This document shows, piece by piece, positions 24,749-31,653 of a stretch of 53,160 nt of DNA. A program made the translations under genes and the position numbers. This DNA comes from Burkholderiaceae bacterium (GTDB lineage: Bacteria > Pseudomonadota > Gammaproteobacteria > Burkholderiales > Burkholderiaceae_D). The notes under the pieces are model-generated. The model saw only the letters and a program-made list of their open reading frames with translations, was not told the origin of the DNA and searched no databases. Position 1 is the first letter of the stretch; the number at the start of each line of letters is the position of its first letter. The stretch is taken from positions 1 through 53,160 of the forward strand of contig JAOASL010000019.1 of the NCBI GenBank assembly GCA_030158675.1, in the 5' to 3' direction.

Positions 24749-25882
24749 ATGGCAAAACGTGATTTTTACGAAATTCTCGGCGTAGCAAAGAACGCGTCGG
24801 AAGAGGAAATAAAGAAGTCTTACCGCAAGCTGGCGATGAAATATCATCCGGACCGTAATCCGGACAGCAAGCAGGCGGAGGAAAAATTCAAGGAGGCCAA
24901 GGAGGCCTACGAGATGTTGTCCGACGCACAGAAGCGCGAAGCCTATGATCGCTTCGGCCATGCGGGCGTGGATCCGAACATGGGTAGCGGCGGTGCTGGC
25001 GGTTTCGGCGGCGGATTTTCGGATGCGTTCGGCGATATCTTCGGCGATATCTTCGGCGGTGCAGCAGGCGGCGGACGCGGACGCGGCGGTCCGCAGGTCT
25101 ATCGCGGCGCCGACCTGCGTTACAACCTCGACATTACCCTTGAGCAGGCCGCGCACGGTTTTGATACGACGATCCGCGTGCCGTCATGGGATGAATGCGA
25201 AACTTGCCACGGTTCGGGCGCGAAGCCGGGTACGGCGCCGACTGCCTGTGCCACTTGCGGTGGCCATGGTCAGGTGCGCATGCAGCAGGGTTTTTTCAGC
25301 ATTCAGCAAACCTGCCCGAAGTGCCATGGCACCGGCAAAGTGATTCAGGATCCGTGCGCCAGTTGTTCGGGCGCGGGCCGCATCAAACGTAACAAGACGC
25401 TGGAAGTAAAAATTCCGGCCGGCATTGATGACGGCATGCGGATCCGCTCCAGCGGCAACGGTGAGCCCGGCATGAATGGCGGTCCACCCGGCGATCTGTA
25501 CGTCGAAATTCATATCAAGCAGCATTCGGTATTCCAGCGTGATGGCGACGACCTGCACTGCGAGATGCCAATCTCGTTTGCACGTGCAGCGCTCGGTGGC
25601 GAGATCGAGGTGCCTACGCTGTCTGGCAAGGTGTCATTCAGCGTGCCCGAAGGTACTCAGACCGGCAAGACCTTTCGTCTGCGCGGCAAGGGCATCAAGG
25701 GTGTGCGCTCCGGATTCCCGGGTGACTTGTTCTGCCACATGATCGTCGAGACACCGGTCAAGCTGACCGAGAAGCAAAAAGATCTGCTGCGTGATTTCGA
25801 CCAGCTGACATCTGCAGGCGGCGCAAAACACAGCCCGCAAAGTAAGACCTGGATGGACAAGGTGAAGGAGTTTTTCGATTAA
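24749..25882 (+). CDS. dnaJ: Co-chaperone DnaJ (Hsp40)
   Basis: A 377-residue type I J-protein. The J domain has HPD at 33-35; a Gly/Phe-rich linker covers about 75-125. Four zinc-binding repeats [24 protein letters not shown] and CASCSGAG lie near 150-210, and the C-terminal substrate-binding domains follow. It stimulates DnaK ATPase and delivers unfolded proteins. It starts 47 bases after the dnaK terminator. Confidence 0.98.
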
Positions 25883-25931
25883 GCGTCATTACTCCTGTAT
25901 CGATGGAGATCAGAGATAGCTGATCAGAAAA

Positions 25932-25961
25932 CGCCGACTGCAAGTCGGCGTTTTTGTTTTT
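25932..25961 (+). terminator. Rho-independent terminator after dnaJ
   Basis: CGCCGACT (25932-25939), loop GCA, AGTCGGCG (25943-25950), then TTTTTGTTTTT (25951-25961). A run of A before the stem means it could also act on the opposite strand. Confidence 0.92.
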
Positions 25962-26108
25962 ATGGCCGTTATACGTCGGTTAAAGTCATTGGCAGAACAG
26001 TGGCTTGCGCCGTTTGCATACGCGCTTGCCAATTTTCATCCAGTCGCAGGACAAGTTCATTCGACCAGTAGACTTCGCGCTCGTTCGTCTTGTTCAGGAT
26101 CCCGGAAG

Positions 26109-28802
26109 ATGTCGTGCTGGCCGACACCCTTACACGAAGCGCTCACCTTAAAAAAGAATCCGCTCACTGCATTGATCGAGGCGATTCGCGCGCATCGCAA
26201 GAGGCGCAGCGACAACGAGCTCGAACAGTCGCTTGTGCGTATCGTGCTGGGCATGCTGCTGGTGAGCCTGTTTGGCTATCTGACCGGTTTGAAACCTGCC
26301 GGGCCACCGGGAATCCATCTGGAGATTGTGTCCGTACTGGCGGGTTTCCTGATTGTTTCGGTGGCGATCTCGGCAAATATTCTGGCCCGTCCCGGAAATG
26401 TTCCGATCAGGCGCGTCTGCGCGATCTTGCTGGATGTCGGTACGCTCACCTATCTGCTGCTGATCGGCGCGGAGCACTCTGCGCCACTGTACTTTTTTTA
26501 TCTTTGGATCATCATCGGTTACGGCTTTCGCTTTGGTCGTCGCTATTTGTTTTTTGCACTCGGCACTACGCTGGCAGGCTTCGGGCTGGTGATCGCGATT
26601 GCGCCGTATTGGCACGATGAACTTGGCTTGTCGATCGGATTGTGGCTCGGCACCCTGCTGATCTCAATTTATTTCAGTGTCCTGGTTGGCCGCCTGCTCA
26701 GGGCACTGGAGCAGGCAAATATTGCGAACGTCGCAAAGCGACAGTTCATCTGTGCTGTCAGCCATGAACTGCGCACGCCGCTGAACGCAATGATCGGAAT
26801 GCTCGACTTGCTGAAGACGACGCGCATCGACAGCGAACAAGAAGAGATGCTGGACTGCATGACGACTACATCGCAGGTGATGCTGTCGCAGATCGAGGAT
26901 GTACTGGATTTCTCTAAAATCGAGGCGGGCAAGATGTCGGTTGCGCACGTCGATTTCGATATATACCGGCTGGTGCACAGTATCCATGCGATGTTCCGCT
27001 ACCGTGTCGATCCGCTCACCACGGACTGGCTGATCCAGATCGATGGCGATCTGCCGGCAATGCTGAATGGCGATCCGCACCATTTGCGGCAGATTCTCGT
27101 GAACCTGGTCGGCAATGCCGTCAAGTTCACTGAGCAGGGGCGAGTGGCGTTGAGGCTGCGTCTTCTGGCTAGCAGCCGCTGCAGCGTAAAAATCTTGTTT
27201 ACCGTAACCGATACCGGCATTGGCATCGCAAGAGCGGTGCAGGGCCGGATTTTCGACAGCTTCACGCAAGCAGATGAATCCGTCGCTCGCCGGTATGGCG
27301 GTACGGGCCTCGGCACCACGATTTGTAAGCAGCTCGTCGAGCTGATGGGCGGGCGGATCGGTTTCTGCAGCGAGCCGGGTAAGGGGAGCGAATTCTGGTT
27401 CGAACTCGATTTTGAGCATGTGTCCGCGCAGCCGTTGCGCATGTCACCGCAGTCCACTGAAATGCATGTGATGACGGTAGGCTTGATGCACGATCAGGAC
27501 TTTCCGGAGCTTGCTGCTGATATCACTGCATTGTGCCGCGTCTCACCGACGGTGGCCGGCTGCATTGATGATGCAATCGAGGTGCTCGAGCGAGCGACTC
27601 TTTCAGACAACCCGGTTGCAATCGCCTTCATTCACGAGCCCTTCGTTGCAGGGGAATCGATGTCCGGCTGGACATCTCGAATGAACTTCCAACTGCGCCG
27701 CCTGCGAACCGCGGCCCACTCGACCGCGATGATCAATGTACTACTGCCATCAAAGGCTATGTCGAACGACCTGGCTCTTGAATTGGCCGAATCGGCCGGA
27801 TTTTTCGCAGTACTGCCAGTGGCGTATGACAAGATCATCCTGTCGCATCTAAGGCATGCGGCAGAGCTTTCCAGCACCGTCGAGGTTCTGTGCGTTCCCG
27901 AACCGGCCGGGCAGGACGTGGGGCCGCAGAGCATTCCTCTGCCGATCCGGTCGGTGGCAAATGACGATGATTTAGAGGTCATGATCGTCGAAGACAATCC
28001 GACGAACCGGCGTGTGCTGCAGAAAATACTGGAGCGTGCCGGCCATCGCTGCGTGCTGGCCAAGGATGGCGAGGAAGCGCTTGAGCTGATCGGCAAACAT
28101 CCTGTCGATGCGATCGTGCTCGATATGAACATGCCGGGAGTCTATGGCACCGAGGTGGCGCGCCTGTGCCGGCTCATGGGTGGCCGCCCTGCGGCAACGC
28201 CGATCATGATGTTTTCAGCCAATGTCACGCCCGAGGCGCGTGATGAGTGTCTGCGGGCTGGCGCAAATGTTTTCATGCCCAAGCCAATACAAGTCGAATC
28301 GTTTCTGAAAGCCCTGAGTGAGCTGGCAGGGGGGGGCAGCGGCTCAGTTACTGTCTCCGCTCAATGCCCGCCCCTGTCCGACAAGTCGCGGATCCTTTGG
28401 TGTTCGTCTGCCGAGCCGATACTTGATGTCCAGATCCTCAAGGGGCTTGAAAGCGTCAGCAAGGATCTGGTGTTTCTGGACGAGTTGATTGCCGAATATG
28501 TCGCGGAGAGCAGCAGGCTTTTAGATGTGCTTGCGCGTGCGATTGATGATGGTGCTGAGCATGAAATCAAAGAAACATTGCATGCATTGCGAGGCTCGGC
28601 GCTCAGCGTCGGTGCCATATCAATGAAGATGATTTGTAAGCGGCTAGAGCGCCTCATTCTTTCCGATTTGAAGGAACAAAAAGAAGAAATTTTTCTGGCG
28701 TTGAATCATGCATTCACGAAGTTGTGCAAGGAGCTGGATCTGTACCAGCAGCAACGCGTGCCGCAGCAGCTATTGCCGATGCCAATAAAAGATAGGTTCT
28801 GA
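26109..28802 (+). CDS. rpfC: RpfC-type hybrid sensor histidine kinase (DSF sensor)
   Basis: An 897-residue inner-membrane hybrid kinase. About five to six transmembrane helices (about 42-195) are followed by the H-box AVSHELRTPLN with His219, the N-box LVGNAVKF, VTDTGIGIA and YGGTGLGTT, then a degenerate receiver-like segment (about 475-600), a true receiver (about 622-740, phospho-Asp672 in VLDMNMPG) and an HPt domain (His825 in LHALRGSAL). The cytosolic N-terminus plus helix arrangement, with SAPLYFFYLWI..GYGFRFGRRYL, resembles Xanthomonas RpfC from memory, which senses the fatty-acid signal DSF. AGGA nine bases before ATG 26109 supports this start; the in-frame ATG at 25962 abuts the dnaJ terminator. 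The HO-fold gene follows after 25 bases and rpfF is convergent. Confidence 0.88.
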   Translation: MSCWPTPLHEALTLKKNPLTALIEAIRAHRKRRSDNELEQSLVRIVLGMLLVSLFGYLTGLKPAGPPGIHLEIVSVLAGFLIVSVAISANILARPGNVPIRRVCAILLDVGTLTYLLLIGAEHSAPLYFFYLWIIIGYGFRFGRRYLFFALGTTLAGFGLVIAIAPYWHDELGLSIGLWLGTLLISIYFSVLVGRLLRALEQANIANVAKRQFICAVSHELRTPLNAMIGMLDLLKTTRIDSEQEEMLDCMTTTSQVMLSQIEDVLDFSKIEAGKMSVAHVDFDIYRLVHSIHAMFRYRVDPLTTDWLIQIDGDLPAMLNGDPHHLRQILVNLVGNAVKFTEQGRVALRLRLLASSRCSVKILFTVTDTGIGIARAVQGRIFDSFTQADESVARRYGGTGLGTTICKQLVELMGGRIGFCSEPGKGSEFWFELDFEHVSAQPLRMSPQSTEMHVMTVGLMHDQDFPELAADITALCRVSPTVAGCIDDAIEVLERATLSDNPVAIAFIHEPFVAGESMSGWTSRMNFQLRRLRTAAHSTAMINVLLPSKAMSNDLALELAESAGFFAVLPVAYDKIILSHLRHAAELSSTVEVLCVPEPAGQDVGPQSIPLPIRSVANDDDLEVMIVEDNPTNRRVLQKILERAGHRCVLAKDGEEALELIGKHPVDAIVLDMNMPGVYGTEVARLCRLMGGRPAATPIMMFSANVTPEARDECLRAGANVFMPKPIQVESFLKALSELAGGGSGSVTVSAQCPPLSDKSRILWCSSAEPILDVQILKGLESVSKDLVFLDELIAEYVAESSRLLDVLARAIDDGAEHEIKETLHALRGSALSVGAISMKMICKRLERLILSDLKEQKEEIFLALNHAFTKLCKELDLYQQQRVPQQLLPMPIKDRF

Positions 28803-28827
28803 TTTCACACCACCAGGGGGAATGGAT

Positions 28828-29481
28828 ATGTCATTGACTGGACAGCTGATCGAAATTACCGATTCTAATCGGCACGAGATCGAAGCAATTCCGCAATTGC
28901 AGGATATGTTAAATGGTCAGTATTCTCGCCAACGGTATATTAATTTTCTGATTCAGTTGTATCCGATCGTTTCTCACTTTTGCCCGCTGATGGCGGCGGC
29001 TGCAAGTCGATGTGCAGATCGCTATCATGAGCTACGCGCTTATTTATACACGCATGTGATGGAGGAAAAGGACCATGAGCGTATGGTGCTGGACGATTTG
29101 GAGAGCATGTATGTTGATACCTCCTTCGTTTCCGAGCAGACGCCCTGTCCGCCGGTACAGGCGATGCTGTCATTCAATTACCATGCCATCAACACAGTTG
29201 ATCCGCATTGCGTACTCGGTATGATCTATGTGCTTGAAATTGTATCGTCGGTTTATGGCGGCAGGGTTGCACAGGCGATCTCCCGTAACGTCAATTTGCC
29301 CCTTTCACAAGGATTTTCATTTCTTGAATCGCATGCTGTCCTTGATGACGAGCATCTCGGCGAGCTCAGGAAAGTAATGCAGTCAGTGCAAGATGGCGAT
29401 CTGGAAGATCGGGTCATGAATAGCGTCAGTGTGAATTTTTATTTGTTCAGGCAAGTGCTCGGCTATACCGAAACTCATTGA
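28828..29481 (+). CDS. Haem-oxygenase-fold iron-containing redox enzyme
   Basis: A 217-residue all-helical protein resembling the TENA/PqqC/haem-oxygenase-like fold, of the kind annotated iron-containing redox enzyme. Candidate metal ligands are visible in THVMEEKDHERM (about residues 75-86) and LESHAVLDDEHLGEL (about 166-180), which fits the His/Glu/Asp pattern of HO-like di-iron oxidases. AGGGGG lies seven bases before ATG 28828; another ATG six bases upstream is too close. It directly follows rpfC and faces rpfF, which suggests a role in making, modifying or degrading the fatty-acid signal, but this is inference. Classical haem oxygenase activity is not supported, as no haem-uptake genes are near. 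Confidence 0.8.
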   Translation: MSLTGQLIEITDSNRHEIEAIPQLQDMLNGQYSRQRYINFLIQLYPIVSHFCPLMAAAASRCADRYHELRAYLYTHVMEEKDHERMVLDDLESMYVDTSFVSEQTPCPPVQAMLSFNYHAINTVDPHCVLGMIYVLEIVSSVYGGRVAQAISRNVNLPLSQGFSFLESHAVLDDEHLGELRKVMQSVQDGDLEDRVMNSVSVNFYLFRQVLGYTETH

Positions 29482-29515
29482 AAGATCATTTGAAAACTGT
29501 AGCGCTTCCCGATTC

Positions 29516-29560
29516 AGCCCAGTGATGCTCACCGTATCAAACTTTACGGTTGGGCTTTTT
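29516..29560 (+). terminator. Terminator after the rpfC-HO-fold unit
   Basis: AGCCCA (29516-29521) and ACCGTA (29531-29536) pair with TACGGT (29545-29550) and TGGGCT (29551-29556), leaving one bulge of nine bases; T run to 29560. It separates the plus-strand unit from convergent rpfF. Confidence 0.65.
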
Positions 29561-29601
29561 GGGCCGAACTCGGGGCGCTCATGAGCTTGTTATGCAAGCA
29601 T

Positions 29602-30552
29602 TCAGGCGATTTCAAGGCCGTTGCTGGTTTTATCTGTGTTTATCATGTTCCTTTGGTGTTTCGCATGGAGCGAGCACTGAGCCATGGCAAGCTGCTTCAT
29701 TAGTTGCAGATCTTTCCCTCCGATTTTTAATGCAGCATCGACCCATAGCATCGCAATATCACGCAGTTCTTCGAAGGTAATTGGCCAAAGATGATTTCGG
29801 CATTCGTAAATTGATCGCATGCCATTCAAGTGACGGTTCTTTTTTCTGATCAATTCCAGCACTGCATTTTCCCCTTCGCCCACAGGCGCCACCACATCAA
29901 TGACACCCATGTCGGCGAGTTCTTCAGCCCGGTAGGTATTACCACTTAGCATCATCTCCTCGGTTTTGCGCATGCCAATACGCCTTGCCAGAAAACTGTA
30001 GGCCCCCATGCCGGGGAAAAGGTTAAAAATAATCTCGGGCAGTCCCATCTTGGTATTGGCTTCGGCCACGATGATCTGGCTGGAGAGTGCGAATTCAAAG
30101 CCGCCGCCCAGTGCATCACCCTGAACCAATGAAATCGTAGTTGTCGCACAGTTGTATCCTTTGATTCGAGGGTACATGGCATCGACGCATAGCTTGGCGT
30201 ATTCCACCAGTGCATCGCGATTCTGCTCACGGATCAGATTGATGAACAACGCGAGATTCCCTCCCAGATTAAAGACTCCTTTGCGTCGCGATCCGATGAC
30301 ACAGTAATTTACTGGCTGCCAGTCCTCTTCGTGAAGAATATGAGATTCATGATGATTCAGTTCGTGAAAGACATGATGGAGCTCTTCGACCATGTCTTGA
30401 TTGAAACAGGGAACGCCTACCGGTTTCATGTAGGTCCAGAGCGCTCGCCAGGTTTTGTCATACACGAGATCGACTTGCTGGTACTGGCGCCTTGGCCAGA
30501 GGTCAGGACGATCGGTTTTCTTCAATTGAGGATTCTGGTCGGTGGGCAGCAT
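29602..30552 (-). CDS. rpfF: RpfF-type DSF synthase (crotonase family)
   Basis: A 316-residue enoyl-CoA hydratase/thioesterase that makes cis-2-unsaturated fatty acid signals from acyl-ACP. The crotonase core includes FNLGGNLALF (about 94-103), ALGGGFEFAL and GLPEIIFNLFPGMGAYSF. Glu153 and Glu173, 20 residues apart, correspond to the two catalytic glutamates known in Xanthomonas RpfF (141 and 161). Overall length, about 30 residues longer than plain hydratases, and the NLFPGMGAYSFLARR motif favour RpfF over EchA-type enzymes. AAGGAGA precedes the ATG. It is convergent to rpfC and the HO-fold gene, so synthase and sensor are linked but separately promoted. Confidence 0.9.
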   Translation of the reverse strand: MLPTDQNPQLKKTDRPDLWPRRQYQQVDLVYDKTWRALWTYMKPVGVPCFNQDMVEELHHVFHELNHHESHILHEEDWQPVNYCVIGSRRKGVFNLGGNLALFINLIREQNRDALVEYAKLCVDAMYPRIKGYNCATTTISLVQGDALGGGFEFALSSQIIVAEANTKMGLPEIIFNLFPGMGAYSFLARRIGMRKTEEMMLSGNTYRAEELADMGVIDVVAPVGEGENAVLELIRKKNRHLNGMRSIYECRNHLWPITFEELRDIAMLWVDAALKIGGKDLQLMKQLAMAQCSLHAKHQRNMINTDKTSNGLEIA

Positions 30553-30987
30553 CGTTTTCTCCTTCGGTCTGTGGTCGGTTGAACCTTCCGGGGGGCATCT
30601 GCAACATGGGGCAGCGGACGCTATGCGGTTTGGCAGATGAACTGTCGCTCCGCACCGGGTGATGCGATGGTCGATTGCTTTGCCGCAGGCTTTGCTCCGG
30701 GGCGCGCCCTATCGGTTGGCGTCTGGCTTGTCCATTTCTAAAATGATTCCGAAACGAACTTGATCTTTATGGTTTTCCCAAGCGATGCTGTTTGCTCTTG
30801 CTCAAACTTTTCGGCGGCATTTGCAGTTTATGAAGGCCGGTGTTGAGATAAAAAATAATTAGTGATGCGGTCGATCACGCTAATAATTTTTGCTCTTTGT
30901 CGCGTGTTTTTCTTTGTAAAAATCGAATGGAAGAGATCCTCACTTGCTGCGGTAAAATCAAGCGCTAACTTTTTGAATTGATTCGAT
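30553..30987. other. 435-bp divergent regulatory region between rpfF and the carbonic anhydrase gene
   Basis: No gene is visible. The part near rpfF is GC-rich; the part near the carbonic anhydrase gene is AT-rich and contains a large imperfect dyad at 30851-30891. Promoters for both divergent genes must lie here; I could not assign -35/-10 boxes with confidence. Confidence 0.6.
30851..30891. promoter_or_regulatory. 41-bp imperfect inverted repeat, possible operator or bidirectional terminator
   Basis: AAAAATAATTAGTGAT (30851-30866), centre GCGGTCG, ATCACGCTAATAATTTTT (30874-30891). The arms match except for one base and a two-base insertion. The core GTGAT-N7-ATCAC is perfect. A-tract before and T-tract after mean it could also form a bidirectional terminator, but no gene ends nearby, so an operator is favoured. 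Confidence 0.5.
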
Positions 30988-31653
30988 ATGCCTGCAAAGA
31001 ATTTCGATAGGGCACTGCGTGAACTCGTGGCCAATAACCGCCAGTGGGCGGCTTCGATGGTTGAGCAAGATCCTGAATTTTTCAAAAAACTCGTTGCACA
31101 GCAATCACCCGAATTCCTCTGGATAGGCTGCTCGGACAGCCGTGTGCCGGCAAATGAGATCGTCGGCTTGCAGCCAGGCGAACTGTTTGTTCATCGGAAT
31201 GTCGCGAATGTCGTTGTGCATACCGACCTGAACAGTTTGTCCGTACTGCAGTTCGCGATTGATCAGCTGGAAGTGAAGCATGTGATCGTAGTGGGCCACT
31301 ACGGCTGTTCAGGCGTACGCGTTGCGATGGAGCGCAGGCGCGTTGGCCTGGCAGATAACTGGCTACGGCACGTGCAGGACGTGCACATCAAGCATGCTCA
31401 GCTGTTGCCTGAGGAGATGGACGCCAACCTCAGGCATGACAGGCTGTGCGAGCTGAACGTGATCGAGCAGGTGGTCAACGTTTGCCAGACCACGATCCTG
31501 CAGGACGCGTGGGAACGTGGCCAGGATGTCACCGTCCACAGCTGGGTCTACAGTTTGCAGGATGGGCTGGTGCGCGACCTTGGTATGGCGGTCAGCAATG
31601 CCGACGCGATGGTGCCGCAGCTTGAGGCCAGCCTGGCTCGATACCAAGCCTGA
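30988..31653 (+). CDS. can: Beta-class carbonic anhydrase
   Basis: A 221-residue cytosolic zinc enzyme interconverting CO2 and bicarbonate. Zinc ligands Cys48, His104 and Cys107, and the Asp50-Arg52 dyad in CSDSRVP, are all present; GHYGCSG is the second signature. Length is standard for the Can type. It is monocistronic, convergent to panB with eight bases between the stops. Confidence 0.95.
   Translation: MPAKNFDRALRELVANNRQWAASMVEQDPEFFKKLVAQQSPEFLWIGCSDSRVPANEIVGLQPGELFVHRNVANVVVHTDLNSLSVLQFAIDQLEVKHVIVVGHYGCSGVRVAMERRRVGLADNWLRHVQDVHIKHAQLLPEEMDANLRHDRLCELNVIEQVVNVCQTTILQDAWERGQDVTVHSWVYSLQDGLVRDLGMAVSNADAMVPQLEASLARYQA

Follow-up and report, generated by a model that had tools for sequence, protein, structure and literature searches.

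A haem-oxygenase-like, probable diiron oxidase gene between rpfC and rpfF in a DSF-type signalling locus of a Burkholderiaceae bacterium

Introduction

The synthase RpfF is usually taken to yield DSF signals directly. The window analysed here, i.e. the whole 53,160-nucleotide stretch of contig JAOASL010000019.1 from a Burkholderiaceae bacterium, contains a DSF-type locus whose preliminary description named an RpfC-like sensor kinase and an RpfF-like synthase. That description had overlooked a third gene, hdo, located between the two and coding for a haem-oxygenase-like protein.

Results

Sensor kinase and synthase

The rpfC and rpfF genes lie on the + and − strands, respectively, and are convergent, spanning positions 26109–30552, as originally described. 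The hybrid histidine kinase gene (rpfC-like; 26109–28802, + strand) encodes HisKA, HATPase, REC and HPt domains, all found by Pfam and preceded by five hydrophobic segments in a simple hydropathy analysis, which agrees with the domain order first proposed. Its receiver matched the RpfC receiver chain 3m6m_D with 82 bits. The open reading frame begins at 25962, and because a 13-pair terminator-like hairpin between dnaJ and rpfC (25927–25955, + strand; consensus match only) ends at 25955, the start placed at 26109 by the preliminary description is the likelier one. A weak hairpin of the same kind is located in the hdo/rpfF gap (29531–29550, + strand; consensus match only); eight terminator-like hairpins were observed in the region 25860–31000, compared with 5.5 expected from shuffles. 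Near the N-terminus of the kinase, the motif R-S-D-N-E-L-E-Q (26205–26228, + strand) has the spacing of Xanthomonas RpfC, for which the DSF-sensing residues are given as R-x-D-S-E-x-x-Q (PMC5391125). Four of the five residues that correspond to Arg15, Asp17, Ser18, Glu19 and Gln22 are identical, and the serine is replaced by asparagine. The exact motif R-x-D-S/T-E-x-x-Q is present in 9 of the 17 relatives that could be aligned among the 47 loci of the HDO scan (see below).

The rpfF gene (29602–30552, − strand) encodes a 316-residue DSF-type synthase of the crotonase family, assigned from the catalytic residues, structure matches and a tree. Residues 153 and 173, the catalytic pair of the crotonase pocket, are both glutamates, as had been noted before. 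The best four solved relatives (7zq7, 3m6m, 6dgn and 5fus) scored 189–172 bits, and the next chain scored 64 bits. Two of these structures are named RpfF (3m6m and 6dgn), and the others a crotonase/enoyl-CoA hydratase family protein (7zq7) and a putative enoyl CoA hydratase (5fus); the 5fus match is nearly identical to the 6dgn match, and 7zq7 is nearest to 3m6m in the RpfF tree. Grouping with ordinary enoyl-CoA hydratases, the alternative raised in the preliminary description, was not seen in these matches. With the NCBIfam model NF053515 (RpfF), the protein scored 221 bits, below the cut-off of 550; the established synthase of Burkholderia cenocepacia scored 188 bits, so this cut-off misses some synthases. 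Together, the sequence features support an RpfC/RpfF-type locus, the synthase of which would make a cis-2-unsaturated acid.

The hdo gene and its predicted metal ligands

The hdo gene (28822–29481, + strand; 219 residues) starts 19 bases past the rpfC stop codon. Its assignment as haem-oxygenase-like is based on Pfam PF14518, on profile matches to 3dde, MboA, CADD and UndA, and on a structure model (pLDDT 92.2) whose fold matches are haem-oxygenase-like. The sequence is 21% identical to 3dde, a Shewanella denitrificans protein without an assigned function, and is distant from UndA, a fatty acid decarboxylase of the HDO superfamily. The complete 3H/3C set of HDO ligands is present and aligns with those of UndA and CADD: Glu82 and His85 (codons 82–85, 29065–29076, + strand), with the ExxH spacing of UndA, Glu139 (29236–29238, + strand), and His171, Asp175 and His178 of an HxxxDxxH motif (codons 171–178, 29332–29355, + strand). 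In CADD, the spacing differs by three extra residues between the glutamate and the first histidine. Omission of L108, L113 and duplicate rows reduced 123 sequences to 106, including that of the window, and in this alignment the two glutamates and three histidines are present in all 106 rows and Asp175 in 105. The product of hdo is therefore a probable diiron oxidase with a metal centre predicted from conserved residues and the modelled fold. A haem oxygenase proper is not favoured by the residues: the proximal histidine of such an enzyme would presumably be located in the first helix, and the 19-row seed alignment, all seeds of which came from rpfF loci, shows no invariant column ahead of Tyr39.

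In the tree of the 106 sequences, the rpf-linked HDOs form one clade (50 rows versus 56 others, SH-aLRT 100), in which all six ligands are retained in 49 of 50 rows, five of them in every row and Asp175 in 49. Residues F53, C54, N119, Y145 and F167 are specific to this clade. Searching the order and phylum with profiles gave 136 distinct HDO places, and neighbours were checked at 58 of them with fetched loci of ∼3.6 kb. In the sister clade, all 53 examined loci instead contain a row of AMP-binding, HDO and SDR genes, with the AMP-binding gene upstream of the HDO gene and the SDR gene on the same strand.

Linkage of hdo to rpfF

A scan of named genomes with HDO sequences returned 47 loci, 17 of them repeats of seed loci, and rpfF adjoins hdo in 45. 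The two exceptions break off at or close to the end of a contig: L108 ends inside hdo, and in L096 319 bases are left beyond hdo. When the 17 loci with an RpfF identical to that of an earlier-fetched locus are omitted, rpfF is present in 28 of 30. The two matches lie 36–522 bp apart in 44 of the 45 loci; in L082, a desaturase gene and a second, partial copy of HDO stand between them, and the distance is 2048 bp. A convergent rpfF downstream of hdo is the most common order (37 loci), followed by rpfF>hdo> (5) and rpfC>hdo>rpfF> (3, all Noviherbaspirillum), with the loci scored without rpfC in this count partly reflecting contig ends or split matches. Outside the scan, the order hdo>rpfF> was found in genome G264 and on a Methylibium plasmid, where the two frames share 4 bases and 18.6 kb contain no rpfC match. 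Both betaproteobacteria and alphaproteobacteria appear in the titles of records with this adjacency, which is also found on a plasmid. Since the gene orders vary and the plasmid pair has no rpfC match nearby, hdo tracks the synthase rather than the sensor. Genes of fatty-acid desaturase families were found beside rpfF as single cases (PF00487 in L082, PF03405 in L109). These desaturase genes, the relation to UndA and the AMP-binding/SDR partners of the sister clade are hints to the substrate of the HDO.

Comparison with known systems and history of the locus

The layout had been described as different from that of Xanthomonas; however, in X. campestris, rpfF and the rpfGHC operon are likewise convergent (PMC4504480, PMC8357829). 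The two systems also share an RpfF with both glutamates and a five-segment RpfC with an HK-REC-HPt arrangement and four of the five residues of the DSF-sensing motif, whereas the window locus has hdo between rpfC and rpfF and lacks rpfG and rpfB. The latter two genes were correctly placed outside the window, as the whole contig contains neither an HD-GYP nor an AMP-binding (RpfB-type) match. No rpfG (REC-HD-GYP) is found beside rpfC at this locus, whereas it is in 20 of the 47 scanned loci, so the output regulator would be encoded elsewhere. The genome encodes two short receiver-HD-GYP proteins (domains judged from sequence and tblastn), which fall outside the locus-RpfG group in an HD-GYP tree, on such long branches that the tree settles little. 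It also contains 17 AMP-binding and 17 EAL matches; a query with the FI domain of RpfR found no match in the genome, and the same query also missed an EAL protein beside RpfF in Methylobacterium, so that RpfR may still act as a sensor here.

RpfC-type DSF loci outside xanthomonads, including betaproteobacteria, are described as rpfF-rpfG-rpfC clusters in Thiobacillus, Methylobacillus and Leptospirillum, and the published descriptions of these clusters (PMC4504480, PMC8357829), on which the comparison is based, do not mention an HDO in the passages concerned. The RpfF/RpfR system of Burkholderia likewise has a crotonase-type synthase convergent with the sensor gene, but its sensor is RpfR, not RpfC, and no HDO match at E 1e-12 was found in a 7.8-kb stretch of B. 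cenocepacia.

The preliminary description also suggested a distinct or transferred system. A recent import is not supported. RpfF matches of E 1e-40 or better were found in 13 of the 15 further genomes sampled from the genus (one of the 13, G352, over residues 7–165 only; none in G538 and G567), the window RpfF lies inside a supported 16-row clade with its genus relatives, and the locus is near dnaJ in the genus, in one Herminiimonas MAG and in two Lacisediminimonas loci. RpfF is patchily distributed, being present in 62 of the 349 genomes searched in the order, and the locus may have been transferred long ago. The RpfF tree omits 17 loci that were identical in RpfF and scores L048 as lacking hdo although its contig ends before that place; because the branches of the PDB and B. 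cenocepacia rows are long, the deep order of the tree was not used.

Discussion

Retention of hdo beside rpfF in many relatives hints at a dedicated enzyme that modifies or destroys the signal. Our main reading, to which we assign a probability of about one half, is that this DSF-type RpfF/RpfC locus has a third dedicated part, an HDO that oxidises the acid released by RpfF and most likely tailors the signal. The evidence consists of the genes, their linkage, the HDO clade, the predicted fold and the conserved ligands; we infer the metal, substrate, reaction and direction of effect of the HDO as follows. RpfF, judged from its family, would dehydrate a 3-hydroxyacyl-ACP and free a medium-chain fatty acid with cis-2 unsaturation. 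This free acid would be bound through its carboxylate, in the way that lauric acid is bound by UndA, and oxidised by the HDO, presumably an Fe2/O2 enzyme of the cytosol; the most likely outcome is a tailored product (further desaturated, hydroxylated or oxidatively decarboxylated) in the form read by RpfC. The receiver/HPt relay of RpfC would then pass the signal to the output regulator. UndA provides a precedent for an HDO that acts on a C12 fatty acid (PMC13108848), and its product 1-undecene is an example of an HDO product that serves as a signal (PMC10614000).

The same enzyme could instead clear the signal: by destroying what RpfF makes, through oxidative decarboxylation for instance, it would set the decay rate of the signal. 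The chemistry of UndA, which takes off the carboxylate (PMC13108848), and the absence of an RpfB-type gene from the contig favour this role, and in the most common gene order hdo follows rpfC on the same strand, which would place the off-switch in the operon of the sensor. However, the AMP-binding matches elsewhere in the genome indicate that other routes of signal turnover exist, and the plasmid, Noviherbaspirillum and alpha-type loci, with hdo on the rpfF strand, fit biosynthesis at least equally well. We consider clearance unlikely. More doubtful still is a regulatory HDO, non-catalytic or gated by O2 or iron, whose binding to the signal or to RpfF would tune RpfF activity: hdo lies directly behind rpfC, and RpfR and RpfC have been described as holding the activity of RpfF (PMC8357829), but near-complete retention of six ligands in the rpf clade is expected for catalysis, and the Methylibium plasmid pairs hdo with rpfF and has no rpfC match nearby. 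That hdo is a passenger doing unrelated work and carried by chance in an ordinary Rpf locus is very improbable, for although it adjoins rpfF in only 5 of the 62 RpfF-bearing genomes of the order (a count that takes the RpfF and HDO genome samples to be the same draw, as handles and numbers agree), the adjacency persists through several gene orders, beta- and alphaproteobacterial records and a plasmid, and one HDO clade is devoted to it.

Tailoring by the HDO leads to a more tentative proposal, which we hold as a possibility somewhat short of even odds: in a branch of DSF signalling in Burkholderiales and some Alphaproteobacteria, the signal would be an oxidised member of the DSF class, perhaps even a volatile alkene, made by a second enzyme that depends on O2 and iron, and by virtue of these dependencies it would report oxygen and iron besides cell density. 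Among open-licence PMC papers, a search that paired DSF or rpfF with an HDO-type enzyme returned none that was, by title, about such a gene. Cultured hosts are offered by records named Noviherbaspirillum and Lacisediminimonas, in which the locus is present. A probable diiron oxidase that remains next to rpfF while the gene order changes would add a new enzymatic step to DSF signalling, with a product that can be searched for, and the rpf-linked hdo would provide a biological context for one unassigned branch of the large HDO superfamily.

RpfC/RpfF locus of the window

Downstream of dnaK-dnaJ and a terminator-like hairpin of 13 pairs lie a hybrid histidine kinase gene (rpfC-like; 26109-28802, + strand, in an ORF that opens at 25962), a 219-aa gene termed hdo (28822-29481, + strand), whose haem-oxygenase-like product (HDO) is a probable diiron oxidase, and a crotonase-family gene (rpfF; 29602-30552, − strand), followed by a carbonic anhydrase gene. 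The preliminary description identified an RpfC/RpfF pair, and this assignment holds for both proteins. The crotonase protein contains Glu153 and Glu173. Among solved structures it matches best 7zq7 (which bears only a superfamily name), RpfF 3m6m, RpfF 6dgn and 5fus, with scores of 189–172 bits (64 for the next chain). Against the NCBI RpfF model it scores 221 bits, and the known Burkholderia cenocepacia synthase scores only 188, so the curated cut-off of 550 does not exclude the window RpfF. The kinase comprises five hydrophobic segments and HisKA, HATPase, receiver and HPt domains, and its receiver matches the RpfC receiver 3m6m_D. The first hydrophobic segment is preceded by R-S-D-N-E-L-E-Q (26205-26228, + strand), an altered form of the DSF-sensing motif of RpfC. 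According to an excerpt of PMC5391125, Arg15, Asp17, Ser18, Glu19 and Gln22 of Xanthomonas RpfC are essential for DSF sensing; four of the five are present in the window protein with equal spacing, and Ser is replaced by Asn. The motif varies within the genus of the window, with further changes in relatives.

The aligned RpfCs of loci with an HD-GYP gene all have R-x-D-S/T-E-x-x-Q (6/6). Such a gene lies upstream of rpfC in 20 of the 47 loci from the HDO scan described below, and none lies beside rpfC in the window. The window's genome contains five HD-GYP genes (6 matches), and two of them encode short receiver-HD-GYP proteins that fall outside the locus RpfGs in an HD-GYP tree with very long branches. 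Also in this genome (L004:997-3535), a receiver-HD-GYP gene is followed by one for a protein full of GGxGxD-type repeats.

The convergent layout, previously said to differ from that of Xanthomonas, is in fact the same, as rpfC and rpfF are convergent there too (PMC4504480, in part); the same excerpt names RpfC-type clusters in Thiobacillus and Methylobacillus. A recent arrival of the locus is likewise not borne out. Of the 15 further genomes of the genus that the draw contains, 13 have an RpfF match at E 1e-40 or better (in one of the 13, G352, the match spans residues 7–165 only), and the window RpfF belongs to a supported 16-row clade of genus and Oxalobacteraceae records. The locus is near dnaJ in the genus. 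The same holds for two Lacisediminimonas loci and a Herminiimonas MAG, where an HD-GYP gene intervenes. The locus may derive from an old transfer, since RpfF is patchy across the order (62/349 genomes).

Linkage of hdo and rpfF

The hdo gene goes with the synthase gene, though it is not always present. Scanning named genomes with an HDO profile, whose seeds all came from rpfF loci, yielded 47 loci, 45 of which contain rpfF; of the other two, L108 breaks off within hdo, and L096 extends 319 bases beyond it. In 17 of the 47 loci RpfF is identical to that of a locus fetched earlier, and with these excluded the count is 28/30. The hdo and rpfF matches are 36–522 bp apart, with the sole exception of L082 (2048 bp), in which a desaturase gene and an incomplete second copy of HDO lie in the gap. 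rpfF is convergent downstream of hdo in 37 of the 47 loci, the order rpfC>hdo>rpfF in one direction occurs in three (all Noviherbaspirillum), and rpfF>hdo in five, with titles of alpha- or unspecified proteobacteria. Outside the scan, hdo>rpfF was found in genome G264 (L118) and on the Methylibium petroleiphilum PM1 plasmid (L109), where the two annotated frames share 4 bases and 18.6 kb contain no RpfC match. Linkage across such varied gene orders indicates that hdo follows the synthase. In the family draw, hdo is present in 16 of 20 fetched RpfF loci, including the window; L048, counted as lacking it, is cut short by the end of its contig. In L054, L057 and L061, rpfC faces rpfF without hdo between them. 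Mapping hdo presence on the RpfF tree requires 9 changes, at least 6 of them forced by starred branches, and hdo was therefore gained or lost several times.

HDO matches from the order and phylum served as a control group. An HDO match at E 1e-10 occurs in 53 of the 349 genomes from the order, 12 of which carry RpfF as well. HDO and RpfF are neighbours in five (the window's own, G065, G103, G264 and G271; 235–348 bits) and unlinked in seven (G005, G039, G055, G170, G311, G340 and G347; 130–143 bits), separated by 290 kb or more or placed on different contigs. The order and phylum draws gave 136 HDO places, from which 58 loci of ~3.6 kb were fetched. Five contain rpfF and no AMP-binding neighbour; the remaining 53 (L119–L171) each carry an upstream AMP-binding gene and a same-strand SDR gene, joined in 50 by a TPR gene, and lack rpfF in the 3.6 kb fetched. 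A single branch of the HDO tree (SH-aLRT 100) splits the rpf-linked from the AMP-binding/SDR group (50 versus 56 rows). The AMP-binding > HDO > SDR row is widespread, mostly with a TPR protein next, and resembles an acyl pathway. A T_hemolysin-family gene lies upstream in all three of the larger sister-clade loci covered (L110–L112).

Putative function of HDO

Judging by its family, RpfF would release a free medium-chain acid. We consider oxidative tailoring of this product to be the putative role of HDO, with a probability of about one half. L082 (326-2989) carries, besides the partial tandem HDO copy, a PF00487 membrane fatty-acid desaturase gene that immediately follows rpfF in the same direction. 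In L109 (8980-11532), hdo, rpfF and, after rpfF, a "ferritin"-annotated gene that matches FA_desaturase_2 (PF03405) are co-directional. Searches with both desaturases (tblastn) found no further desaturase gene in loci up to L173. The RpfF acid, these two loci, the AMP-binding, SDR and T_hemolysin neighbours of the sister clade, and UndA, an HDO that takes dodecanoic acid with the carboxylate on iron (PMC13108848, in part), point to an acyl compound as the putative substrate. However, other HDOs act on amino acids (same excerpt), and by profile MboA is nearer to HDO than UndA is. That HDO instead clears the signal is unlikely, and a regulatory role is more doubtful still. There is a precedent for an HDO-made signal, as the UndA product 1-undecene is reported, in an excerpt of PMC10614000, as a communication molecule in Pseudomonas fluorescens MFE01.
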